The position numbers and the translations under genes are program-made. The notes beneath the pieces were generated by a model that worked only from the letters and a program-made list of their open reading frames with translations, made no database searches and was not told where the DNA came from. From a virus, in the IMG/VR virus record IMGVR_UViG_3300046777_000109, positions 1 through 30,404 of that record: a stretch of 30,404 nucleotides of DNA; one strand, given 5' to 3'. This document shows, one piece after another, positions 2,285-18,671 of the stretch (within the stretch, counting starts at the first letter, position 1; the number at the start of each line of letters is the position of its first letter).

Positions 2285-5128
2285 ATGTTAAAACAATTTT
2301 ACGAGAAAGCATTACCAAAGCAGGGTGTTTATTGCGTTAGCGGAATAGAACAAGAATCTAAAAAAATAACAAACCGTTTTGCTGAAACACTTGAAGATGT
2401 ATTTAAACAAATTGAGAAGATTAAGAAACAAGGATTAAACACTTATGTAGCGTTAGGTTCGTTTGATGGATTTAGTAGGAAGGCAGATAACGGGCTGTTC
2501 TATCGGTCGTTCTTTATTGATCTAGACTGCGGTGAAGACAAAGCCGCCGAAGGCAAAGGTTACGCCAACAAAGACGATGCCCTAGTAGCCTTAGAAAAGT
2601 TTCTTGAGGAATCTGAGTTACCCCCTCCCATAGTCCTAGATTCAGGCACGGGCATCCATGCGTACTGGCTGTTAGAAGAAGACGTTCCTGTCGCTGAATA
2701 TATTCCTTATGCAGAAAAATTTAAGTCTTATGTATTAGCAAGAATCAAAGCTGATGCAGCGGTGATGGCAGATGTGGCACGGATTATGCGTTGCCCTGAG
2801 ACCTTGAACTACAAAACTGACCCCCCGTCAGAAAGTAAGTTTCTTAGCGATGAGATGTTTACCTATAGCTTTGATGCATTCAAAGAGTTCCTTGGTGAGG
2901 CTGAATTAGCGCCTGACGATGTGCTGGCGCATGTAAAGAAGGGTCTAGACGAGGAGACCCGCAAAGCGCTAAACATGGACAACTTTAAGTACGTCTTTGC
3001 GGAAATTGCGGAGAAGAGTCTTAACGGCACCGGGTGTAATCAGATACGTTACATGCTTGAAGAGCCTAATTCTGTGACACGGAATCTGTGGGCTGGAGGC
3101 TTAACCATAGCCGTACATTGCGAAGATGGGGCGACAGCTATCCATCAGATGTCTGAAGATTACGAGAACTATAACTATGATGAAACAGAAAAAACTGCCC
3201 ATTCTTTTAATGCTCCAAGAACCTGTGATTGGTTTTACAAAGAAGACCCAAGTAAGTGTGAAGGATGTCCTCACAGAGGAAGAATCAAAACTCCCATCGT
3301 CCTTGGAAAAGAGTTCCAAGTTGCAGCCTCGCCAAGTAAAGAGGACACAGTTTGGCAGGCACCGACTGCCGAAGAAATTCCTACTTTCCCAGACTTCCTA
3401 AGACCGTTTGCACGGGGTATGCATGGCGGTATTTACTTTATGCCCCCACCCAAGGTAGATAAAAAAGGCGTAGTACACAACCAAGTACCAATACAGATTC
3501 TTCCATACGACCTGTATCCTGTTCAGCGTTTGTACAGCAAGATAGATGGTGAGTGCCTAACAATGCGCTTGGTTCTTCCTAATGATGGCAAACGAGAGTT
3601 CTTACTGCCAATGAAACATGCATATGCACAAGAAGAATTTAAAAAAATCATGATTAGTAATGGTGTTATGCCACAAACCGATCATGTGCCACACCTAATG
3701 AACTATGTAATTAAATGGGAACAATACATGATTAACTTTCAAAAAGCCGAAATGATGCGTATGCAGATGGGCTGGACTGAACCTAAGTTTGATGGAGAAT
3801 GGGAAAAGCGTGCTTTTGTAATTGGCAACAGCGAAATTACAGCTAGTGGAGAGATTATTAAGTCAGCTGCTTCTCCTATGGTGCGGATGATTGCCCGTCA
3901 TTTAAAACCTGTGGGGTCGTTTGACAGATGGAAAGCTGCCGCACAAGAGCTAAATAGGCACGAGCTAGAAGTCCATGCATTTGGCATGCTGTGTGGGTTT
4001 GGTTCTCCGCTTATGGAATACATGTCGACTTCAGGCGTTGTGCTTTGTCTTACCGGCGGTTCAGGTAACGCTAAGACTGGTGCAATGTATGCCGGACTAA
4101 GTATCTTTGGCAATCCAAAAGAACTAAGCGTCTTTGACGCAACTGACAACGGTATGACAGGGCGCTATCTAGGGTTGCACAGCTTAATGCTAGGTATCGA
4201 TGAGATTAGTAATAAAGATGGCAAAGTACTTTCTCAGCTGATACATAAAATATCGCACGGTAAAGCCAAGATTAGGATGCAAGCATCTGTTAACGCCGAG
4301 CGTGAATACGAGCAATCAGCGGCACTTATTGCACTCTTTACTAGTAACCACTCAATCTACGGCAAGTTAGAAGCGGAGAAAGCAAATCCTGATGGTGAGG
4401 CAGCTCGTGTAGTTGAGTTTATGGTTAAGAAGCCCAGCATCCTACAGGGTGAGATGGGAGGTACTTTGGGACGGCAGATATTTGATACGTTCCGTACTAA
4501 CTTTGGGCATGCTGGTTTCCCCTATATCCAAGAGGCGTTAAGGCTTGGCGATAACTATATAGAAGACAGGATTGGCTACTGGCGGGAAAGGTTTGTTAGA
4601 GACTTTGGCAACGATAATACCTATCGCTTTTACGAGAACTTAATAACTGCAGCAATGGCTGGGGGCGACATAGCAACATCCGCTAATTTAATAACGCTAG
4701 AGCTAGATCGTATTTATGACGATACTGTTAATCGTATGATTCACGTCCGTGAGAACATTATTAAGGTTAATAAGATTGACTACGAGTCTATCCTTGGTGA
4801 CTTTATGAACATGCACTTACCTAATACGCTGGTTATTAAAGACGGTAAGATGACGTATGAACCTAGGGGCCAACTCGTAGCGCGCTGCGTCTCTGAAGAA
4901 AGTCTTTATCAAGTGTCTAAAACTAAGCTCAAAGAGTACCTACAGCAAAAGCACATCAACGTGCCTGAGTTCGAGGACTATATGAAGCAGAAGAATATCT
5001 TAGTCGACACTAAGAAGGTAAGACTAAGTTCGGGATGGAAGAGCACAGGCAACGCTGAAAACGTCTGGGCTTACAACTTCAAGTCAACCTTACCTGATAT
5101 ACCGTATGGAACCGACGAAGATAATTGA
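2285..5128 (+). CDS. bifunctional primase-helicase (AEP-type primase, zinc segment, DUF927-like AAA+ helicase)
   Basis: A 947-residue replication enzyme expected to make RNA/DNA primers and unwind the template in the cytoplasm. The N-terminal primase-polymerase domain shows FIDLDC (77-82, metal-binding D79 and D81), LDSGTGIHAYWLL (118-130, the sGxGxH motif with H125) and DVARIMRCPETLNYK (163-177, nucleotide-binding arginines). A likely zinc site uses C251, C314, C325 and C328 (CEGCPH). The helicase domain has Walker A GGSGNAKT (591-598), Walker B LMLGIDE (634-640) and a sensor-1-like LFTSN (684-688). The C-terminal 130 residues resemble a winged-helix-type tail. All key residues seen are intact. 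No strong Shine-Dalgarno precedes the ATG. It is separated from the upstream genes by the terminator at 2249-2271. The next gene starts inside its 3' end. Confidence 0.92.
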   Translation: MLKQFYEKALPKQGVYCVSGIEQESKKITNRFAETLEDVFKQIEKIKKQGLNTYVALGSFDGFSRKADNGLFYRSFFIDLDCGEDKAAEGKGYANKDDALVALEKFLEESELPPPIVLDSGTGIHAYWLLEEDVPVAEYIPYAEKFKSYVLARIKADAAVMADVARIMRCPETLNYKTDPPSESKFLSDEMFTYSFDAFKEFLGEAELAPDDVLAHVKKGLDEETRKALNMDNFKYVFAEIAEKSLNGTGCNQIRYMLEEPNSVTRNLWAGGLTIAVHCEDGATAIHQMSEDYENYNYDETEKTAHSFNAPRTCDWFYKEDPSKCEGCPHRGRIKTPIVLGKEFQVAASPSKEDTVWQAPTAEEIPTFPDFLRPFARGMHGGIYFMPPPKVDKKGVVHNQVPIQILPYDLYPVQRLYSKIDGECLTMRLVLPNDGKREFLLPMKHAYAQEEFKKIMISNGVMPQTDHVPHLMNYVIKWEQYMINFQKAEMMRMQMGWTEPKFDGEWEKRAFVIGNSEITASGEIIKSAASPMVRMIARHLKPVGSFDRWKAAAQELNRHELEVHAFGMLCGFGSPLMEYMSTSGVVLCLTGGSGNAKTGAMYAGLSIFGNPKELSVFDATDNGMTGRYLGLHSLMLGIDEISNKDGKVLSQLIHKISHGKAKIRMQASVNAEREYEQSAALIALFTSNHSIYGKLEAEKANPDGEAARVVEFMVKKPSILQGEMGGTLGRQIFDTFRTNFGHAGFPYIQEALRLGDNYIEDRIGYWRERFVRDFGNDNTYRFYENLITAAMAGGDIATSANLITLELDRIYDDTVNRMIHVRENIIKVNKIDYESILGDFMNMHLPNTLVIKDGKMTYEPRGQLVARCVSEESLYQVSKTKLKEYLQQKHINVPEFEDYMKQKNILVDTKKVRLSSGWKSTGNAENVWAYNFKSTLPDIPYGTDEDN

Positions 5129-5312
5129 ACCTGAATGGCTGTTGCCATTTGAAAATATGGAGATTGGGGATAGTTTCTTTATCCCCACCATGCGTCCGCC
5201 TGAGCTTATTTATTCTATTGACTGTGGTGCCAAGCGTGCCGGCGTCCGTGTAAAGTCATACGTTACAACTAAAGAAGGGTACATCGGCGTACGCTGCTGG
5301 CGCACAGGTTAA
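5106..5312 (+). CDS. small conserved phage protein of unknown function
   Basis: A 68-residue protein that begins 23 bases before the primase-helicase stop. It has a core MEIGDSFFIPT (from residue 18) and the ending GYIGVRCWRTG. This two-part pattern (MeiGdSFfvP ... GvRVWR) is a small family frequent next to phage primase or helicase genes; I know no function for it. An alternative start at the internal Met18 would remove the N-terminal segment, but relatives usually carry a short lead before this Met, so 5106 is kept. It has no membrane segment and a single pair of cysteines (C40, C64 approximately). Its stop overlaps that of the convergent giant gene. Confidence 0.75.
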   Translation: MEPTKIIEPEWLLPFENMEIGDSFFIPTMRPPELIYSIDCGAKRAGVRVKSYVTTKEGYIGVRCWRTG

Positions 5313-8300
5313 GGCTTTAGGCCGTATGCCTCGTATGTTTGTTTCATGTTGTACTTAATAATATTTTGAGATAAAGCATTTACTTTAAGCATTTCAGATT
5401 TATCTTTTGGCGTTAAATTTTGATCGCGTCTAATACGATTAGCTTCTTCACGAAGATCTTTTAGTTGGCTGCCTACAGTGTCTTTATATATTTCAACAAC
5501 GGCTTCTATAAAAGGATCATCAGCTAATATCTTAGAATACAGTTCTGGCTTAGTCTCAGCAGCTGCAAGTTTTCTTTGTTTCTCTTCGATCTTAGCTTCA
5601 AGCTTTTTAAACTCACGGCTATCTACGTTAGGCACGGCGCCAATAAACGAACCAACAAGTGGTAAATCTGTTTTAGCCTTAAATTCTTTTGTGCCACCAA
5701 TTAAATACGAAGCGTTGACAATAGCATCAACAACCCGTGCCGGGCCGTCTATATAACTATTGGCGAGGAAATAAAGAGTATTAGGTGATATATCAATAGA
5801 TCCAGCGCTTGACTCAAATAAATTAGTAGCTAAGATTTTATAAGTCTCTGGAATGTGGTCACTACCAAGATATGCATCCCCCATGCGGCGGTTAGAGTCA
5901 TTGTAGATGTCTTGTCCAAGACCATTCTTATTCATAACAAACTCAACCAAAGGACGTAATGTGCTTGGTGTTAATGAGTCTGCTATCCACGCCGCTGGGT
6001 TATCGCTAATTGGCATACGAGATACTGGGATTGGCACAAAGGAGTCCAGCATAATCTGTGTTGCAAAATTACCCAACGCATCGCCAATTGACTGTTGACC
6101 CGACATAACCCCAGCAAGTTGCGCCCCGCCAGATGCAAACGCGCCAAGTCCAAAGCCCCAAGGCACCTGTAATGGATTTTCAAACCCAGGAATGTAAAAC
6201 CGAGCAAAGCGAGTCCACTGGCTCATGTCATCGTTCATGACCTTGTTTCTGCCCAAGTCATCTTCATCCGCTGCCATTATTGCCATGTAGTAAGCAAGCG
6301 CACCAGCTCCTCCTAAAGCAAGAGTCATGTAACGTGCAGCTTTTTGTCTTGCGGCATAGTTAGCTTTAAATTCAGCCAATGCGGCTGGGTCTTTTGAAAT
6401 TCTTTCTGGCAGCGCAGCAACAACTTTATCTAGATTTTGGAATGCTGGGGCAACAGCCTCAATAGCACGGACGGCGCCTGTAGCAGAAGGACGGAAGAAC
6501 ATAAACGCAGCGCCCATTTCTCTACCGTATTTACCGACTTGCTCAAAGTTAGCTAGATTCTTAGCGTAGGCAGCAGCACGTACCTTGGCAGCAGTTTCAG
6601 TTGCACCATGATCTCTAAAATTCTTCTTAGCGATAGCATACGCTGCGGAGCGGCTAGCCAATTCAAACATATCAGTCCAAATGTCAACTAATCTATTGAA
6701 TTGATCCCAAGTCTTAATTACTCCGCCACGCCCTACTTCTTTATATAGTTTTTCAGCGTTGGACTTTAGCGAGATACCTTGGAGGTACTGCACCATGCCG
6801 CCCTCTTCGATAAACTCAACCATCTCTTTATAGATAGGATCTTTCTTAGCAAGCTCCCTAATCTTGGTGTAGTCTTTGGTTTCATACAGTCTGGCAATCT
6901 TCATGCCCTTACCTAAGCTATTGCCGGTTACTACTTTATTAGCAATTTGCGTAATAAATCTTGCGGCTTCTCCTGGACCCATCTCAGCACCAATTGCCCA
7001 AGCGTTAGTCAATGCGTCACGCACAAAGTTTAGCGGGGCAAAGTTGTAGTTATAGCGGGTATGCATCATACCTAGGCTACTTGTAATCTTATTAGCAACG
7101 TTAGTTAACGAGTTAGTATCCTTATATGTACGGCGAATTGCTTCACGCAAAGACTTATCTCGGATAGCAATAACGTCAATACTTCCATCTTCGTTGTAGT
7201 GGAATATGGTGTTTTCTTTGGGTAGCGCTTTTAAAATGTTCTCGTCTTGACGTTCTTCAAAGGTAATACGCTGTAAGACTTCGCCTTCTAAAAGTCCTTG
7301 TCCGTCAGGATTTAGATCGACTTTCTTGCCGTCAACAGTCTTTGTACTCTTACCTACAGAGTTCTTAATAGCTTGAGTAAGTTCTTTTCTGCCAGCACGC
7401 ATTGCTGCACGTACAGCATCTGACATAGATTGGAGTATTGGATTGTCAGAGACAGACACACGCCCATCAAACCCGTGAGCAACTTCTTGTAACTCTTTAC
7501 CCATCTTGGCGCTGTCAAAATCCATCATTTCGTCAGCTTCGGAATGCTTATCGACACCTTTTAAAGGCACATAGTTTTCAAACCCGTAGAAAGCTACACG
7601 GTTACTAACCGGCTGTGACCAGTAGTTGGCTGCCTTATTAAGGTCCGTAGTAACCCTATGCAGTTCTTTAACTTGTGCAAACACATCATCTACTAAAGCT
7701 TTAATCTTAGGGTCAAGTGCTTCGTATTTTAATCTTTTAGCTCCAGCGGCTTTTGGACTTACGCCGGTTGCGTTGTAATCTTCGTGAGTAGGATCAACAG
7801 TTTTTTTGCCAGACGGGCTAAAACCAGCTGGGGTTACGTATTTAGTATTAGGTATTTGTTTGCCGTTGGCATCCGTTGTGAAGACGATAGTATTTAACTC
7901 AGACCTAAGAGCTCTTGCCTGAGCATCCGTAATAGTCTTAGTGTTTAGGATCTTCATGATCTGCGCACGGCGATCAGCAGCGCTAATCATAGTGCCGCCT
8001 TGCGGTATGTCTTTTATAGTAGACAGCGGTACCGTCATAACGTACTTAGCTAGGCGACGCTCAGGATCGTGTAAGGCTTCTGCAATTCGATGCAGCATAT
8101 CCATGACATCTTTCATTTCCATGCCAGTAGTCTTAGACAACTCATACACGGCGGTATTTAGCTTCTCGTAGGTACCTTCTACAAACTCATTAAATATGTT
8201 CTTGGCGCGGCTAGTACTTAAGGTAAGCTGATCGTAGATGTTATTGATCTTGTTTTTACCTTCGTATATGGTTTTATTAGCTAAGTCATTTAGATCCTGC

Positions 8301-11300
8301 CAACGTTTAATTGGATAGCGCTCGTTTTGTAAGGCGGTGGCAACTCGTCTCCAGCCCTCTTTGGTAAAGAACAAGTTTTTTATGTATTTAAAATCTCTTG
8401 GCTGATGCTCTTCAGACAGCGCATAGGCAGACTCTTTGCCTGGGGTTGGCATGATTTCTTCGTCATCCCGCAACTCAAGTGGCTTCTTAGGCTCTGCACC
8501 AGCTTTTTTGGCTGCAAGAGGCGCTACTTCAATACCAGCTTCAGGCGCAGCTAAGACACGCCCAAATATCTCTGACATCTCTAATAGCAAGTTACCTTCG
8601 TAGCCAGGGAAGGTAGTTAAGAACTTTCTAGCTTGCTTAACTGTCTTTTGCTTTTTAGCTTTTATTTCTGTTTCTTTACCCTCACCCGCTAGAGATGGTG
8701 CAGTAATTGAGCCTAACTCTAATGATTCAATCTCATCTAAAACTGCATTTTGATACAGCTCGTCTGGGTCCATTGAACTATATTCTTTGGCGACTTGCTG
8801 ATACATCTCAGCAGTTAGCTCATTTACTTCAGACTTGGCGCTATATAAGCCAAACATCTTGCTAAGTGCTTGAGTAAATTGCTTCCAAAGCTCCATAGCC
8901 CTGCCTGTATATTTAGCAAGGGGGCGAACCTGCATTTCAGAAAGAGCAATTTGGAACTTATTGTCAGTTAGCGCATAGCTAACAAACTCGTATAGATTTT
9001 CGTATGCGTTCTTAAATCTATTACCCAACCGTTTTTTAGAGAAGTCGTATATCTTCTGTAAATGTTCGGCAGCCTCCCGTTGCTCCGCAGTAAGTTTGGA
9101 AGGGTCAGTTAAAAACTGATTGATAATTTTTACAGTGCCTGCGTGAACAATCTCATGGAGAACAGTAGCCTCATCAAAACCGCCTGGCGTAAAGTAAAAA
9201 GTATCTGTCTTAGGATCGTACTCAGCTAATTTGCCTTCTTTCTCCAAGCGTTGAATAGTCGCATTGTTCGGGTCTGTTACGACTGTAGACGTAAATCTTA
9301 GTTTATTTAACGAGTTAGCTAAGATCCTAAAAGTCAATGCAGTGGCACGTTTACGTAGCTTGGCAAGATGAGCGTATGCCTGACGATAAGTTTTGTCTCC
9401 TCTTTCAGGGCGTAAAGTTTTAAGTCCTTCAGCGCTTGTTATAAGGTCAGATAGAACGCCATTTATATCTCCAGCTATTAACTTAGCTTTTGTTGCTTCA
9501 GATATGGCTTCGCCTTTGCCCTGTGCAGAAGCCTCCGCTGCGGCTTCTTTTGCAATGCGCTCAGCAGCTGTGACTTTAGATACTTCCTCAGTACCTTTTA
9601 ATTGTAGGTTTCTAACACCCTCACGAGATACTCCACGAAGACCTTTACCTTCTTTCTCAAGTTGTGCAGCTACGGCATCAAACCCCGCATCCTGCTCAAC
9701 AGGAGTATTGTTTTTAACTCTGGAGGTATAAGCAGACTGTGCTTCTGGGGACAGTTCACCCCATGCTGGTAAGTCAATAACTAACGCACGTTGATAGGCT
9801 TTACGGCTTTCTTCGTAGCCGTTTACTATGCGTTGTTCAGCTGGTTTAAGACCAGAACCTTTCTTCTGTTCTTTATATGCAGCTAATGCTTTAGCAGCAT
9901 TGTCGTAGTCAGCTAAAACAGCATCGGCGGGTAGTGTCGCTAAATACTTATCTCGTTCATCTAAAGTTAAATCCTTCCATTGAGGTACGGTAACACCCTG
10001 TTCTTTTAACTTAACCCTAGTCTTTTCATATTGTTCACGTATATCGGCGTCGGTTTTAGGCTGAGGTATATTTTCACCAGCAATTTGTTCTAATGCAGCT
10101 TGACGCTCTGCCTCCGCTGCCGCAGCTTGTTCTTGGTCTCTTTTAAGTCCAGCTTCGTATTCTGCAAGATTGGTAGTTGGAAACGCTTCGTTCCTAACAG
10201 GAGGGCCTATTTTTGACTCCTCAAGAGCTGCCCGTGATTGAGCTGCTAAATCTTGTTCTGGCTGAGCATAATAATCTTCACCGGTTATTTCTTTATATCG
10301 TTTAGCCCTTCTAGGCTCAGATTCTTTAATAAACTCATCAAGTTCATCTTGAGCTTTTCGTAGAGCTATTTTTTCTTTACTGTTTTCTGATAGGTCTTCA
10401 GCACGTCTTTCTGCTTTTTCTGCGGCTTTTAGACGCTTTGTTAGTTTCTTTAAAGTTTCTAAATCTTCTTTTCCGCTAGGTTCTAATGCAGGCTGCTGTG
10501 CTCTTGCTCCGTCTTCAGCTGGGCTAATAGCACCTTCAGCGCTAACCACTCCAGGTCGTCCATCAACGGTAGCTCCTGCGGGGGCTCCTCCTGGTGGGGG
10601 TCCTCCAAGAACTTCAGCGCCAACTCCACCTGCCGTAGTGTCAATCGGTTTAGTAACATCTTTACCTCCTTCGGCTAACTTAGCCTTTAGCATTGCTATC
10701 GCATCTACGTTTTTAGTGCCTACTGGGATAGTTATTCCAGCTTCTTTAGCTAGTTTTCTATAGTCGGATTGTTTAATTTGAAGCCCAGCATCAACCGCAG
10801 CTAAGTAAGATGGTAAGTCTGTATATGTAAGGGCAGGCGTAGGGGTGGCAGTAGGGGCTGGCGGAGGCGCCATGTCTTTTTGCAGTAAGTCGCCGGCGCT
10901 ATTAATAACAGGATTTAGTTGAAGCTCTAACTCACTATCAACAACAGGGGGTGGAGCTTGGTTTTGTAGAGTAGCCTCTTGGTTCTTAACCTCTTGGCTT
11001 TTATCTTCATCAGCGATGGTTTTGTTAGCATCAGGTTTGACTTCTGGCGCACCAGGCCCACGGATACCAACAGCCGAGCCTACTAATGCACCAACAGCGG
11101 CATCCCGTGCAGCGGCACCCGCTACACCTTCAAATGTGCCAACATTAAATCCTTCTTTCTGTAAGCCACGGTTAACGGCAAGTTGTTCTTGACCAGCCTG
11201 CACCCCTTCTAGTGGAGCTTCAGCCGCCGCTGCTTTAGTCATGCGACCTACAAGATTAGAACTTAGTTTGGCAGATGCACCGGGGGTAAGCAAATTCTCA

Positions 11301-12007
11301 ACACCAAACCGAGCAGCTACGCCGCCTAATGCGGTACCGCCCATAATGTCTAGGAAGTTAGCGCCAAGGTATTCTTGGGCTTGTTTAGCTTTTGCATCAG
11401 CCTCTTGTTCACTAAGACCAGATTTAACTAGTTCGTTCTTAACGTTATCGTATAGAGAACCTTTTACTGATCCAGCTCCTTGCGCTGCACCTACTACAGT
11501 ATTAAGAGCACGTACCACGGGGGCAGTTAACCTACCAACTGCACCAACTATGCCTGTGCCAACATAGGGAACAATAGAGCCAAGACCTTGTGCCAAAGAT
11601 TGTACTGGGGCTTCGGCTACACCAGCTAGGAAAGTACTTATCTCATCACCAACCGTACCAGTTTTAGCAGCCTGTTGTTGCAAGTCTGCACGACGAGCCA
11701 TCTCAGCTTTACGCGCTGGGGTGTACTCTTCACCTAGTTGATTCTGAATATCGCCTAGCTTTTTAGAGACAACGTTCTCAGCACCAAACACGTCAGTTAG
11801 CGCTTTGGCTGAACCAACAACACCTTGTTTTAATGCAGTAGCGGTATCAGCAAGCGAGAACCCAGCGCTAGGCGGAGGTGGTGGGGCTTCTTCTTTTTGT
11901 TTAACACTAGGTAATATATCTCGCTCAATAGCGTTGATAATGTCCGCTTGTGACATCCCGTCAGGAAAGTTAACTTTCCCAACACCAGGTACATTAACAG
12001 ATGGCAT
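5309..12007 (-). CDS. giant polyvalent virion/ejection protein with HExxH peptidase-like motif and LPD38-like C-terminal region
   Basis: A 2232-residue protein, last gene of the minus-strand operon. Residues 4-32 match a motif shared by internal virion proteins (VPGVGKVNFPDGMSQADI). Next come a glycine/alanine-rich hydrophobic stretch (about 118-185), Pro/Ala linkers (about 325-510) and charged coiled coils (about 510-900). LHEIVHAG gives HExxH at 951-955, with E1007 in YEFVSYAL as a plausible third zinc ligand, as in gluzincins. Around 1640-2060, NFAPLNFVRDALTNAW, a conserved FRPSATG segment and one hydrophobic helix (about 1892-1912) resemble the LPD38-type region of large polyvalent proteins. 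I infer that it travels in the capsid, enters the cell with the DNA and may act on the envelope or on host defences. The start lacks a Shine-Dalgarno and follows the previous stop by two bases. No transglycosylase motif was seen. Confidence 0.85.
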   Translation of the reverse strand: MPSVNVPGVGKVNFPDGMSQADIINAIERDILPSVKQKEEAPPPPPSAGFSLADTATALKQGVVGSAKALTDVFGAENVVSKKLGDIQNQLGEEYTPARKAEMARRADLQQQAAKTGTVGDEISTFLAGVAEAPVQSLAQGLGSIVPYVGTGIVGAVGRLTAPVVRALNTVVGAAQGAGSVKGSLYDNVKNELVKSGLSEQEADAKAKQAQEYLGANFLDIMGGTALGGVAARFGVENLLTPGASAKLSSNLVGRMTKAAAAEAPLEGVQAGQEQLAVNRGLQKEGFNVGTFEGVAGAAARDAAVGALVGSAVGIRGPGAPEVKPDANKTIADEDKSQEVKNQEATLQNQAPPPVVDSELELQLNPVINSAGDLLQKDMAPPPAPTATPTPALTYTDLPSYLAAVDAGLQIKQSDYRKLAKEAGITIPVGTKNVDAIAMLKAKLAEGGKDVTKPIDTTAGGVGAEVLGGPPPGGAPAGATVDGRPGVVSAEGAISPAEDGARAQQPALEPSGKEDLETLKKLTKRLKAAEKAERRAEDLSENSKEKIALRKAQDELDEFIKESEPRRAKRYKEITGEDYYAQPEQDLAAQSRAALEESKIGPPVRNEAFPTTNLAEYEAGLKRDQEQAAAAEAERQAALEQIAGENIPQPKTDADIREQYEKTRVKLKEQGVTVPQWKDLTLDERDKYLATLPADAVLADYDNAAKALAAYKEQKKGSGLKPAEQRIVNGYEESRKAYQRALVIDLPAWGELSPEAQSAYTSRVKNNTPVEQDAGFDAVAAQLEKEGKGLRGVSREGVRNLQLKGTEEVSKVTAAERIAKEAAAEASAQGKGEAISEATKAKLIAGDINGVLSDLITSAEGLKTLRPERGDKTYRQAYAHLAKLRKRATALTFRILANSLNKLRFTSTVVTDPNNATIQRLEKEGKLAEYDPKTDTFYFTPGGFDEATVLHEIVHAGTVKIINQFLTDPSKLTAEQREAAEHLQKIYDFSKKRLGNRFKNAYENLYEFVSYALTDNKFQIALSEMQVRPLAKYTGRAMELWKQFTQALSKMFGLYSAKSEVNELTAEMYQQVAKEYSSMDPDELYQNAVLDEIESLELGSITAPSLAGEGKETEIKAKKQKTVKQARKFLTTFPGYEGNLLLEMSEIFGRVLAAPEAGIEVAPLAAKKAGAEPKKPLELRDDEEIMPTPGKESAYALSEEHQPRDFKYIKNLFFTKEGWRRVATALQNERYPIKRWQDLNDLANKTIYEGKNKINNIYDQLTLSTSRAKNIFNEFVEGTYEKLNTAVYELSKTTGMEMKDVMDMLHRIAEALHDPERRLAKYVMTVPLSTIKDIPQGGTMISAADRRAQIMKILNTKTITDAQARALRSELNTIVFTTDANGKQIPNTKYVTPAGFSPSGKKTVDPTHEDYNATGVSPKAAGAKRLKYEALDPKIKALVDDVFAQVKELHRVTTDLNKAANYWSQPVSNRVAFYGFENYVPLKGVDKHSEADEMMDFDSAKMGKELQEVAHGFDGRVSVSDNPILQSMSDAVRAAMRAGRKELTQAIKNSVGKSTKTVDGKKVDLNPDGQGLLEGEVLQRITFEERQDENILKALPKENTIFHYNEDGSIDVIAIRDKSLREAIRRTYKDTNSLTNVANKITSSLGMMHTRYNYNFAPLNFVRDALTNAWAIGAEMGPGEAARFITQIANKVVTGNSLGKGMKIARLYETKDYTKIRELAKKDPIYKEMVEFIEEGGMVQYLQGISLKSNAEKLYKEVGRGGVIKTWDQFNRLVDIWTDMFELASRSAAYAIAKKNFRDHGATETAAKVRAAAYAKNLANFEQVGKYGREMGAAFMFFRPSATGAVRAIEAVAPAFQNLDKVVAALPERISKDPAALAEFKANYAARQKAARYMTLALGGAGALAYYMAIMAADEDDLGRNKVMNDDMSQWTRFARFYIPGFENPLQVPWGFGLGAFASGGAQLAGVMSGQQSIGDALGNFATQIMLDSFVPIPVSRMPISDNPAAWIADSLTPSTLRPLVEFVMNKNGLGQDIYNDSNRRMGDAYLGSDHIPETYKILATNLFESSAGSIDISPNTLYFLANSYIDGPARVVDAIVNASYLIGGTKEFKAKTDLPLVGSFIGAVPNVDSREFKKLEAKIEEKQRKLAAAETKPELYSKILADDPFIEAVVEIYKDTVGSQLKDLREEANRIRRDQNLTPKDKSEMLKVNALSQNIIKYNMKQTYEAYGLKP

Positions 12008-12009
12008 AG

Positions 12010-14592
12010 TTATTGTGGTGCGTAAGTAAAGGAGCCGTCTTTATTCTGTACTAGTTTACCTCCAGGTGCAGTAGATGTCGGTTTAGCACTAGGTGTAGGT
12101 GTTGTCCCAGTAGCCTGAACTCTAGACATTTGATCTATTAAAGAATTAACTTGTTTGTATTCAGAGAGCAATCCCGATGCTTCTAGTTTTGCATCTAACT
12201 GATCTTGAGCTTTTTTCTTTATTTCGGCAATTCTAGGGCTATTTTCAGGATTAGCCATCTCCGCTTGCATCACAAGTATTTTATTTTCTTTCCTAACGTC
12301 ATTTATTTTTCCTTGAATAGCTGTGCGTCGGGTCATTAAGTTATTTAAAACTTTATCATCACCCCCACCAGTACCTTCAGCCCGCACTTTAGCTGCTTCC
12401 AAAGAACGTTGGCTAGATAGATTGGATGCAGCAAAGGTAAGAACGTTACCAACTTTGCCTTTTAGATCAGCAGATAATTTCTGTTTAAGTTCAGCAGCTT
12501 TGTCAAACTCGCCTGCTCTCTCCAAACGCTCTGCTTTATCCAAGCCAGTAATACTTGCGTCGATGTCTCTAAGAATCTTTTTCTGCTCTTTGGAGTCAGT
12601 AATAAAGTCAGGCACTTTGTTTTTAAGTGCAGTTAAACCAGCAGCAATTGAGTTGCCTGGGGTAGACCCCCACGTTGCAAAGAACTCAGCCATGCGCATC
12701 CAGTTTTGACGAGTAGCTTCTTCTTTAGCGTTAGCCTTCTCAGCCATCAATCTTGCACGCTCTTTTGGAGTGAACTCATCCGGTCCAATGTATGCACGGC
12801 GCTCAGCCGCTATTTCAGAAATAGTTTTTTCTGGGGCGTTTGCTTCTTTAAGAGTACGCTCAAATAATTTGTCAAGCTCAGGATTACCTGTTCTAAGTGC
12901 AGAAGTAATACCAGCAGGAGCGGCGGTTGGAGCAGCAGCTGGAGCAGCAGGAGGTTTAGCAGCTGCTGGAGGAGTTTGAGGTACGTTAGTTTCTGTGCCA
13001 GTACCGGGAACAGTTTTAATACTAGTAGGGGTTGGAGCGGGCGCAGCAGCAACAGGAGCCGGAGTGGGCGCAACGGCTTTAGCCTCATCAGGCGTTGAAT
13101 ACGCTGTAGCGCGTTTTAAATTTTCTTCTTGTGCTTTACCTAAATAATTTTTTAGCTGCTGGTATGGAGTCACTCTATCGGCTTCGGCAGCTTGCCGTTC
13201 ACGATACTCCCGCATAATTTTTTCTTCTTTACTTTCTTCGCGCTCAACTGGTAAGTTACCCTGCGGTAACGTCAAAGTATCTTGTGCAAAAGTTGGTAAC
13301 CTAGATGAACCGCCAGCTTGGAAGGCAATAATCCCACCGCTAGCCTTACCTACCTTGTCACGTAGAACTTTCTCAGCTAAGCGTTTTGCTATTGGGCTAG
13401 AAGATTCTTTAATGTAGTCTTGGAGTTCGTCAGGGCTCATGTCGTAGAGTATTCCTTCTACGTTGTTACTTATGCCACCTTCTCTATACGATTTGATACC
13501 AGTTGTTGGTTTAAACTCACTGGGAAGGCCACCCTCCTTACCGCCTTGGAATACTCTACCAAGCGAACCAAGAGCACCAACAGTACCGATGCCTTGTGTA
13601 AGTGCATTAGGTGCAGCAACATACTGGTTAGTAGTAGCAGACTGCATTGGTAGACCACGCAACATATTAGACATGACGCCAAGTTGCATGAGCGGATACT
13701 GCTGAGTATTAGCCCAGTCTTGAATAGCCTGATTAATCTTCTGTTGCTCCATAGCTTGTTGCTGAGCACCCATTGAATACTTAGTAGCAGCCACATCTTT
13801 TTGAGCCGCTAATTGCTGTGCGCCTAGACTGCCTAAGCCAGCACCAGCTTGTCCCATCTGACCGTAACCCTGCAAGCCAGTTTGTAGCCCTTGCATCCCT
13901 AGTTGAGAACCAAACTGTTGAGCCTGTTGTGCCTGCTGGAACGCAGCTTGACGACCTTGCGCCTCAATACCTTGTAACTGACTTGTTAAATTACGTTGAG
14001 CTTCTGCTTCCATTAACGCTGCACGATTACCACCAAACGCGCCTTGCCCAACACCTTGAGCTTTACGAAGCTGTTGCCCGATGTTGTAGTCACGCAATGC
14101 TTGACCTTTTTGATAGTCAACCACGTTTTGCATGTATGGAGACATATAAGCTTGTTGAGCGGCGGGGCTTGTTGCCATTTGAGCGTATTGTTGTCCAGCA
14201 CCCATTGCTTGTTGCGCTGCACCAAGAGAACCTAAACCTGCGCCTAAAGTGAAATCTGTAGCTGGCGCAAATTGTCCTGGAACTTCTAACTGCCCAGTTG
14301 CTTGCATAGCCTGCTGTTGAAGCGGGCTCATTGGCGCTACATAATCAGATACATTAGTGCTGTAAGGTTGATAAGGACGAAAGCCAGTAATCTCGTTACC
14401 GTCCATCGTAAACAACTGCTTCTGGGTAGCACCCAGCATGGTCTCAACATAAGGCTGGGCATATTCAGGAATGTTGGTCTGGTATGTAGTACCTGTACTA
14501 GTAGTAGAAGCTGGACCGCCGCCACCGCCCCCACCAAAGCTAAGCTTTAGACTGAAAGAAAAAACATCTTTCCAAAATTTAATTAGATTCAT
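12010..14592 (-). CDS. internal virion / DNA-ejection protein, Gln-Ala-rich
   Basis: An 860-residue structural protein. It starts with an amphipathic segment (residues 1-19) followed by a run of seven glycines. A long helical Gln/Ala/Gly-rich region comes next (about 95-330), full of QQAQQ-like runs. Then come the motif ASGGIIAFQAGG (from 417), a Pro/Ala linker (about 495-570) and charged helices to the end. Long Q/A-rich helical proteins placed between a GNAT-fold protein and a giant virion protein are typical of phage ejection proteins that form a channel through the envelope. No enzyme motif was found. The start ATG overlaps the upstream stop (ATGA). The stop is two bases before the giant gene, so the two are probably made together. 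The role is inferred from composition and position. Confidence 0.85.
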   Translation of the reverse strand: MNLIKFWKDVFSFSLKLSFGGGGGGGPASTTSTGTTYQTNIPEYAQPYVETMLGATQKQLFTMDGNEITGFRPYQPYSTNVSDYVAPMSPLQQQAMQATGQLEVPGQFAPATDFTLGAGLGSLGAAQQAMGAGQQYAQMATSPAAQQAYMSPYMQNVVDYQKGQALRDYNIGQQLRKAQGVGQGAFGGNRAALMEAEAQRNLTSQLQGIEAQGRQAAFQQAQQAQQFGSQLGMQGLQTGLQGYGQMGQAGAGLGSLGAQQLAAQKDVAATKYSMGAQQQAMEQQKINQAIQDWANTQQYPLMQLGVMSNMLRGLPMQSATTNQYVAAPNALTQGIGTVGALGSLGRVFQGGKEGGLPSEFKPTTGIKSYREGGISNNVEGILYDMSPDELQDYIKESSSPIAKRLAEKVLRDKVGKASGGIIAFQAGGSSRLPTFAQDTLTLPQGNLPVEREESKEEKIMREYRERQAAEADRVTPYQQLKNYLGKAQEENLKRATAYSTPDEAKAVAPTPAPVAAAPAPTPTSIKTVPGTGTETNVPQTPPAAAKPPAAPAAAPTAAPAGITSALRTGNPELDKLFERTLKEANAPEKTISEIAAERRAYIGPDEFTPKERARLMAEKANAKEEATRQNWMRMAEFFATWGSTPGNSIAAGLTALKNKVPDFITDSKEQKKILRDIDASITGLDKAERLERAGEFDKAAELKQKLSADLKGKVGNVLTFAASNLSSQRSLEAAKVRAEGTGGGDDKVLNNLMTRRTAIQGKINDVRKENKILVMQAEMANPENSPRIAEIKKKAQDQLDAKLEASGLLSEYKQVNSLIDQMSRVQATGTTPTPSAKPTSTAPGGKLVQNKDGSFTYAPQ

Positions 14593-15005
14593 AATTTGAC
14601 TTCCACCAAAATGGCTTTTTCTTCAAAGCCAAAACGTTTCCATAATCTAGCCACTGCCTCTTTTGCCATGCCTTGAATCTTAGTAGCACCATTCCCTTTA
14701 AACACCTCAGACATCTGTGCAAAGGTTTCTGGACTTGTCACTAATTTTCCACCTATTGAGGTAACAAATGCAACTCTATCGTTAGGATAGTTAATAAATG
14801 ACACTGTAGCAGCGCCATGTATTTCTGCGTTCTCATCTGTTGCCACTAGCAGCATCATCTGCCCTGTCACTAAATAAACTTTAATTTGTTCGGTCGTGTA
14901 CTCTGACCCACCAAACTTCTCTTCTGCACTCTTAATAAACGGCTCAACCCTAGACCAAACTTGGTTTACTAGTTGAACCGGTACTGGCTGGACTTTAAAT
15001 GTCAT
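14589..15005 (-). CDS. GNAT-fold protein, T7 gp13-like internal virion/assembly protein
   Basis: A 138-residue protein with an acetyltransferase-like outline: a leading helix (VWSRVEPFIKSAEEKF), strands MMLLVATDE and GAATVSFINY, the strand VAFVTSIGGK, and a C-terminal WKRFGFEEKAILVEVKL that matches the usual 'Y.k.GF.e......k' end of GNAT domains. In T7-like phages a small GNAT-like protein (gp13) is needed for assembly of the internal core, and proteins like this are commonly found just before the large ejection proteins, as here. The acetyl-CoA pyrophosphate loop (R/Q-x-x-G-x-G/A) is poorly kept, with only a GNGATKIQGMAKE segment, so an enzymatic role is doubtful. It shares four bases with each neighbour. 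Confidence 0.75.
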   Translation of the reverse strand: MTFKVQPVPVQLVNQVWSRVEPFIKSAEEKFGGSEYTTEQIKVYLVTGQMMLLVATDENAEIHGAATVSFINYPNDRVAFVTSIGGKLVTSPETFAQMSEVFKGNGATKIQGMAKEAVARLWKRFGFEEKAILVEVKL

Positions 15006-16768: not shown

Positions 16769-17271
16769 AATTTTTCTCCTTCAATCCTCATTAAGTCATT
16801 AACGGACGCTATCAATCCTATGTCTCCATAGTCTGGTGCTATAACTTCCTCTTCGACTTTACTTAAATTTTCTTCCCCAACATGCTCAGTTAAATGTATA
16901 GTTGTCCAGATAGTATCTTCATGCGCATATACGGCACGCTTTAGACCTACTTCTGACACAAATGTACATGGTCCTTCTAACTCTTTCTTGCCAAATTCTG
17001 TAAACACCGTAACGCGCCCTTTTGAGATGATGTTAAGGTGTTGATGCCTATGTATTTTACCTATAACTAAGGAGCCTTTCCGTAAGAGTATTTCTCTGGC
17101 ATAGGTACAGCATCCGTATTTCTCGTCAATTGGAGAGAAGTAATGTTTTAACGGACTATCGTCAGGTACCAATTGACCAGAAGCTACCTTATCTTTAAGC
17201 CCTTTCTCAACAGTTAAGACGTCTTGTCTAAACTTTACTCTGTCTACAGAATTTTGTATAGATGTTGTCAT
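16765..17271 (-). CDS. cupin-fold virion-operon protein
   Basis: A 168-residue protein with a cupin-like core. GKIHRHQHLNIISKGRVTVF (71-90) carries H74, H76 and H78 followed by the turn glycine, then GPCTFVSEVGLKRAVYAHED (100-119) with H117, and a strand with IWTTIH (H126). Such histidine clusters bind a metal in many cupins, but here the function is unknown. The protein belongs to a family that I recognise from phage structural operons. The first 50 residues are outside the fold, and the last 35 form an acidic tail. It overlaps the next gene by four bases and shares one base with the previous one (TAATG). A structural or assembly role is inferred; an enzymatic role cannot be excluded. Confidence 0.8.
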   Translation of the reverse strand: MTTSIQNSVDRVKFRQDVLTVEKGLKDKVASGQLVPDDSPLKHYFSPIDEKYGCCTYAREILLRKGSLVIGKIHRHQHLNIISKGRVTVFTEFGKKELEGPCTFVSEVGLKRAVYAHEDTIWTTIHLTEHVGEENLSKVEEEVIAPDYGDIGLIASVNDLMRIEGEKL

Positions 17272-18671
17272 TATTGCGTTAAGTCATAGAAAGAAATGGA
17301 TCCAACACCGTCTCCAGTAGTAGCTCCAGATATGGTTCTGACTCCCAAAGTGTATATATCACTGACCCCTGCCAAAGAAGCACCGAGCTGAGTGTCCCAG
17401 TTAAATCCTGTTGGGGCTATTGTGCTTGCCTGACCACCACCGCCAGAGTTAGCAATATAGCCAGTCTGAACAATCGTCCCTGCCGTAGCAATAGCGGTAG
17501 CTGCAACGTCAAACTCCACATTAGCGTCCGATGACACAGCACTCCATGAAGCACCCGTCAAAACAGGGTTTTTAATTAGTGCAAGCTCATAGTTTTGGTT
17601 AGTTGTGGGCTGAAACTGAATCCGATTGGGTATCACTACAGCACCTAAAGCACTTGAAGCCAGCCTTATAGAGATCACTGGGAGAAAGTTTGCGGCTGTA
17701 TTAATGGTAGTAAGAATAGTAGTGCGCCTAGCTACGTGTTCAATAGATGTTTGTTCATACCCCCCAGACGAGTACACACTAGAACAAATCTGTTTCATAG
17801 ACGAGCTTGAAGCTGTGCCAGCCGTATTGCTAATCTCGTATCGGACAGGCAGGATAGCCGTGGTCATATAGACCGAAGTGTTTACGTTGTCGTTGTGGAA
17901 GGTATGACAGATAACAAACTGCCCATCAATAAAGAACCCGCACCGTACATCCCCTACCCCTAGCCACTCAAAGTCAATAGCTAGAATCTGACTTTTAGTT
18001 ACATCAATTGTGCGACCGCTTGCCCCAGTACCGTCTAACTTATCTCCGTTCCAGTTGGCTTGGGTAATCGTAGTATCTATAGGCGCACCGCTGGTATAAG
18101 ACCGTAAAACAAAAGCTAGGGTGGTGTCATTTTGCTGGAAAAACACCCCGTTCTGGGTATTAAAGTAACCTACCCGCTGGCGAAGTCCAGTCTTACCTTG
18201 ATTCATTACAAAAGTAGCCAATAGCCCAAGACCCTTGCCTGGTTGGTATGGCATTGTTCGGTAAGATTGACGAACTACCTCAGAACCACTAGAAGTGGTA
18301 ACGCTTAATTGAACGCTTGCCTCGTTAGGAAGAAACGTAGTAGACCCCCCAGTAGCCGTGCTGGTGTCAAACTGATTATCAATAGCATAACGATTTTGAC
18401 TATCAAATAACGTATAAGGTGACGCTGTAACTAAGCGATTAAAAGCATCTACGTTAGTAGGCGGAAAAGTGACATAGGTTGGGTCTGTTATTGTTCCACT
18501 CATGGTTTGTGCTAGCTCCGCTAAAACGTTATCAATCTGGTTAAAGTACAGACGCAACGCATTGTTTAACTGGTCAACATAAAGCTGGGAGTAACTTACT
18601 GGGGCAATGAGTAAGTTAGGCGCTTTTGGCGGCCTAAGCTCCAAGGTTTTAATTTGGGGGTTGACTGCCAT
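17271..18671 (-). CDS. conserved virion structural protein, function unknown
   Basis: A 466-residue protein. The N-terminal helix (SQLYVDQLNNALRLYFNQID, about 26-46, followed by NVLAELAQ) is a feature of phage appendage proteins. The body is beta-rich, with the conserved blocks RQRVGYFNTQNGVFF, ANWNGDKLDGTG, LAIDFEWLGVGDVRCGFFIDG and YMTTAILPVRYEI. These blocks occur together in a widespread family of phage structural proteins. The DFEWLGVG region looks like a jelly-roll or lectin-like sandwich, which would suit surface attachment, but that is inference. There is no signal peptide and no membrane segment. Its start and stop each overlap the neighbour by one base (TAATG), placing it in one translation unit with the stabilisation-like protein before it and the cupin after it. 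Confidence 0.8.
   Translation of the reverse strand: MAVNPQIKTLELRPPKAPNLLIAPVSYSQLYVDQLNNALRLYFNQIDNVLAELAQTMSGTITDPTYVTFPPTNVDAFNRLVTASPYTLFDSQNRYAIDNQFDTSTATGGSTTFLPNEASVQLSVTTSSGSEVVRQSYRTMPYQPGKGLGLLATFVMNQGKTGLRQRVGYFNTQNGVFFQQNDTTLAFVLRSYTSGAPIDTTITQANWNGDKLDGTGASGRTIDVTKSQILAIDFEWLGVGDVRCGFFIDGQFVICHTFHNDNVNTSVYMTTAILPVRYEISNTAGTASSSSMKQICSSVYSSGGYEQTSIEHVARRTTILTTINTAANFLPVISIRLASSALGAVVIPNRIQFQPTTNQNYELALIKNPVLTGASWSAVSSDANVEFDVAATAIATAGTIVQTGYIANSGGGGQASTIAPTGFNWDTQLGASLAGVSDIYTLGVRTISGATTGDGVGSISFYDLTQ

Follow-up and report, generated by a model that had tools for sequence, protein, structure and literature searches.

Zincins have been noted in the ejected giant proteins of phages since 2017. 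Iyer et al. 2017 (PMC5512222) describe zincin MPTases as a hub of phage polyvalent proteins and propose processing or effector roles for them; the zincin of the N4 vRNAP is placed at aa 2130-2448, LPD38 is listed as phage-only, and 12 MPTase clades are given. A 2021 review repeated the zincin MPTase assignment for other Schitoviridae (PMC8472413), and the N4 vRNAP structure paper noted the HExxH in region C1 of this ejected protein (PMC12633501). No mention of a peptidase was found in the available parts of the text of two ejection-protein papers (PMC8954989, PMC11440229).

The DNA analysed here, referred to as the window, is a 30,404-base IMG/VR virus record. The giant ORF of 2232 aa, with an ATG start, was present at 5309-12007 as in the preliminary description, and was found to lie on the minus strand, which had been left unstated; all features of the giant given below are on that strand. 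The giant gene is the final gene of a leftward late operon, with an 860-aa gene of the DNA ejection protein family phrog_4287 (12010-14592, minus strand, E 5e-10) directly upstream, and the virion structural genes and a lysozyme further upstream. A primase/helicase-type gene (DUF927; 2285-5128, plus strand) is located downstream of the giant in a convergent orientation and borders the late operon as context outside the system. The arrangement is alike in the N4-like records, where the vRNAP gene comes last and the replication genes are convergent. In phage DSL-LC04, the protein at the corresponding slot is annotated as a 'DNA transfer protein', and the neighbouring virion protein is 71% identical. 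By its gene order and neighbours, the locus of the giant is that of an ejection operon. The PHROGs search placed the C-terminal half in phrog_14770, an unannotated giant family, and aa 764-1071 in phrog_2206, a virion RNA polymerase family. An NCBIfam search of the giant returned no match, and a Kyte-Doolittle scan for membrane helices showed no 19-residue window above 1.5. The giant is probably a polyvalent protein of the internal virion (ejection) type from a tailed phage of aquatic origin, and would be packaged in the head and delivered with the DNA; the earlier proposal of an ejection-type polyvalent protein is supported by the homology and the gene order.

Two further genes in the window were noted. 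A 138-aa protein between the ejection-type genes (14589-15005, minus strand) appeared GNAT-like by eye and had no Pfam or PHROG match. A 466-aa virion protein (17271-18671, minus strand) showed 43-46% identity to structural proteins of Synechococcus cyanophages and 71% to that of the freshwater phage DSL-LC04.

The C-terminal backbone of the giant (aa 1190-2232; 5312-8440) is conserved and mostly helical. A fold search of this half against the PDB gave no credible match, with rows only for the last helices (Z up to 6.2). The LPD38-like region that had been proposed from the sequence was identified as Pfam PF18857 at aa 1926-2102 (5702-6232), with an E value of 5e-20 and a score of 72.8 bits, above the curated cut-off of 27; the domain was found in 19/19 relatives scanned. 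The long linkers were also recovered, as low-confidence stretches at approximately aa 1044-1135 and 1155-1190 of the AlphaFold model. The N-terminal motif FPDGMSxxxIxxAI, previously regarded as an internal-virion motif, did not hold up: it is present in only 5/66 relatives with a complete N-terminus, is absent from every other ejected giant that was examined, and is therefore not a marker of the family. The N-terminal module itself (aa 1-510; 10479-12007) is common to the relatives L001 and L002 and is unrelated in L004, L006 and L009, which match only from approximately aa 611 onward, indicating that this module has been exchanged too. A relative with a different upstream region (L016, ORF 5316-12359) carries MORN repeats from residue ~571 (Pfam E 2.5e-18), upstream of the zincin and in a region missing from the window protein, which is a further sign of modular N-terminal halves. 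In the window protein, two helical segments with the pattern PxW..L......Y were observed at aa 640-810 (~9578-10090), ahead of the zincin and within the exchangeable cassette described below; the pattern suggests a degenerate tandem repeat.

The preliminary description placed a gluzincin-like site at HEIVH (aa 951-955) with E1007 in YEFVSYAL, and both were located exactly there. The HEIVH (9143-9157) comprises H951, E952 and H955, the predicted zinc ligands and general base, and E1007 (8987-8989) is the predicted third ligand. It is the sole HExxH in the 2232-aa protein, where ~0.008 would be expected from the composition. The family was collected with the C-terminal half (aa 1190-2232) as the query, which yielded 236 relatives among viral contigs; 80 of them were retained. 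Together with those found earlier, and including L114 and Vibrio phage 1.205.O (L023) as distant members, 78 distinct giants had enough upstream sequence to judge, and the central zincin was present in every one of them (78/78); the zincin played no part in how most of these loci were collected, some came from a zincin-region query and others from a type B region query. The giant of Vibrio phage 1.205.O has 3133 aa and bears both the zincin and the backbone. With the zincin window in each locus placed by HMMs built from HExxH-bearing sequences, H951, E952, H955 and E1007 were invariant in 78/78, and a loss of HExxH in close relatives, named at the outset as an argument against the site, was never seen among these 78. 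The only other fully invariant zincin column was F1008. The restriction of invariance to the predicted catalytic residues and one phenylalanine across 78 proteins gives strong comparative support to the importance of the active site. The zincin domain is under purifying selection, with a dN/dS of 0.04-0.20 over 23 close pairs. In bacterial genomes, the C-terminal half query matched one MAG contig only, so the family seems to be largely non-prophage; a plasmid search gave one weak Acinetobacter match (E 0.01).

Structure prediction of the metallopeptidase region returned a zincin fold at approximately aa 836-1166 (8510-9502), with a low-confidence insert at ~1044-1135, in agreement with the profile matches. 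In the AlphaFold model, the elements follow one another as in zincins (helix, sheet, HExxH helix, glutamate helix), and the core pLDDT is ~70-90. The top VIA-align rows were lethal-factor-type zincins (Z 7.7) and the C1 region of the N4 vRNAP (9pnt, residues 2124-2373; Z 7.6), with PPEPs at Z 5-6; the rows were zincin-fold proteins down to rank 33, with middling values (Z 5-7.7). Foldseek alone gave no significant match for the zincin model. The lethal-factor-type and PPEP zincins share the predicted fold and the metal site of HExxH plus E with the giant; however, the identity was only 8-14% over the aligned part, and the common fold says nothing about the substrate.

Homologues of the zincin were searched with profiles and by tblastn. 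A profile of 17 close relatives matched phiKMV gp37, the Schitoviridae vRNAPs, a Pradovirus internal virion protein, a Limnohabitans autographivirus giant, a Grimontviridae giant and a crAss-like giant, with i-E values of ~1e-10 to 1e-3. In hhalign, the zincin scored 98.6% against the N4-like (Schitoviridae) group and 98.8% against the phiKMV-like group, compared with 0.7% for an unrelated control. Against PDB sequences, the profile matched 9sfn chain G, an internal virion protein of 1337 aa (E 3.6e-8), which single-protein phmmer did not match. By these profile comparisons, the domain is homologous to the zincins of the N4-like vRNAPs, phiKMV gp37, the crAss-like giant and other internal virion proteins, a lineage that spans phages of Pseudomonas, Vibrio and Xanthomonas and a crAss-like gut phage. 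In the crass-like phage cr55_1 (L029, 7543-13566), the 2007-aa protein with this zincin adjoins an ORF of more than 4500 aa; related crassvirus RNA polymerase-associated giants have been found in virions by mass spectrometry (PMC10172136). On the homology, the fold and the invariant metal site, from which activity is predicted, the central domain is most likely a catalytically competent MPTase-class zincin of ejected giants.

The most informative point, invisible from the sequence alone, is that this zincin is a cassette that near-identical phages have traded for a divergent version. The exchangeable cassette covers aa 511-1170 (8499-10478). The nearest relative, L001, has ~86-88% DNA identity on either side of the cassette and none detectable within 8499-10478. 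The slot in L001 holds a divergent zincin (hhalign 96.7%) that has an HEVSH and a KEFAAEF of its own. In L001, identity to the window protein is 86.4% over the backbone and 25.9% over the zincin; in another relative, L051, the values are 51.2% and 75.9%, respectively. Near-identical proteins bearing two divergent zincins constitute a natural experiment. The 78 giants divide into 60 with type A and 18 with type B zincins, each assigned to whichever of the two type HMMs scored it higher; the split is supported by the single type change required on the zincin tree. The backbone tree required 10 type changes, eight of which are forced by well-supported branches, and IQ-TREE analysis of 24 rows gave seven changes on the backbone (six forced) versus one on the zincin tree. 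The incongruence of the trees shows that the zincin cassette has been swapped between phages as a self-contained unit. At aa 1170, its right border lies near the point where the zincin fold stops.

A sub-threshold WHEP-TRS match was present at residues 1205-1244 of L001 (26.4 bits; cut-off 32.5). It lies in a charged insertion that separates the HExxH of the type B zincin from its glutamate helix; the insertion is missing from L033-L035, and the matching stretch is probably a coiled coil.

On the predicted fold and the homology, the domain is most likely an active zinc peptidase that, once delivered, acts either on the chain it belongs to or on proteins of the host. The giant, packaged in the head, would enter the cell together with the DNA, and the peptidase would work in the envelope or cytoplasm. 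Our first choice is that the zincin cuts its own chain at the flexible linkers carried in the cassette, which may separate the LPD38 and N-terminal halves or help to dissolve the ejection complex. As the exchanged unit includes the neighbouring linkers, the enzyme and its cut site could travel together, and the presence of the zincin in all of the giants suggests a core delivery step rather than an optional effector. The relatives offer no established precedent for self-cutting, as PMC5512222 reports that the N4 vRNAP goes into the virion unprocessed and that ArdC and TraC1 are passed on at full length. The exchange of divergent zincins fits changing host targets equally well, and the choice of self-cleavage is held with modest confidence. 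The complete account, comprising an ejected giant, a competent zincin, post-delivery action with self-cleavage as the first choice, and cassette exchange, is put forward tentatively, with a likelihood somewhat short of even.

Host-protein cleavage is a close rival to self-cleavage. The zincin may act as an effector, injected to cleave a host protein of defence, transcription or the envelope, with the swapping reflecting a switch of host or target, and we regard this as possible but on balance doubtful. At least eight divergent-type exchanges are forced on the backbone tree with the active site unchanged throughout, the fold neighbours include substrate-specific secreted peptidases, and the possibility is listed by Iyer et al. 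(PMC5512222). However, a presence in 78/78 would be unusual for an accessory effector, one zincin lineage occurs across very different hosts (those of the Pseudomonas, Vibrio, Xanthomonas and crAss-like gut phages), and no host substrate is known. A more specific idea, which we consider unlikely, is that phages of this group keep interchangeable variants of a metallopeptidase that is injected into the host, that these alleles differ in substrate, and that they replace one another at one set position in an ejected carrier protein; if true, that position would be a delivery site for host-targeting peptidases.

A role as a maturation peptidase, with the giant or other proteins of the head cleaved ahead of packaging or in its course, appears improbable. 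P1 DdrB, which has a C-terminal MPTase, is processed before packaging (PMC5512222), but the unprocessed packaging of the N4 vRNAP argues against this role, and so may the sequence of PDB chain 9sfn G, the phiKMV-type homologue, which has the full 1337 residues. That the zinc site is structural or inactive, with the domain serving only folding, packing or interaction, is very doubtful: no activity report was found for any member in the available literature on these domains, the N4 structure paper gives only the motif and reports autoinhibition of the polymerase by the CTD that includes C1, a non-proteolytic role (PMC12633501), but E952, the general base, is no less invariant than the ligands (78/78), and a purely structural zinc would not need it.

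Among the known systems, the N4-like vRNAP (gp50, Schitoviridae) resembles the window protein in its homologous C1 zincin and in being a giant whose gene closes the late operon, next to replication genes in convergent orientation. It differs in that the window giant has no RNA polymerase match in Pfam and carries LPD38. A vRNAP with a hidden RNA polymerase was considered and rejected on the same Pfam result; PF00940 was absent from 11 related records of 60-67 kb, some of which may be fragments. The phiKMV gp37-type internal virion proteins (at the T7 gp16 position in Autographiviridae) are likewise internal core proteins with a homologous zincin, but have 1337 aa compared with 2232 in the giant, and no LPD38 was found in them. 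A relationship of the C-terminal half of the giant to N4 C2 (hhalign 0.3%) or to the remaining C-terminal half of gp37 (hhalign 0.1%) was unsupported, and these regions are unrelated.

The polyvalent proteins of Iyer et al. 2017 are similar in their general zincin class (HExxH plus a downstream E), their LPD38 and their multidomain giant architecture. The suggestion of an undescribed effector was not sustained, as the zincin belongs to the MPTase hub described there (PMC5512222) and the solved N4 vRNAP structure (PMC12633501; PDB 9pnt) already contains this domain. In the passages of PMC5512222 consulted, there was no mention of cassettes moving among near-identical backbones. Since the zincin hub and LPD38 were both described in that work, the kind of protein is known; what is added here is a large new family and repeated cassette swapping. 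The family also shows a single zincin lineage that links several otherwise unrelated ejection proteins, of the N4-like, phiKMV-like, crAss-like and LPD38 types.
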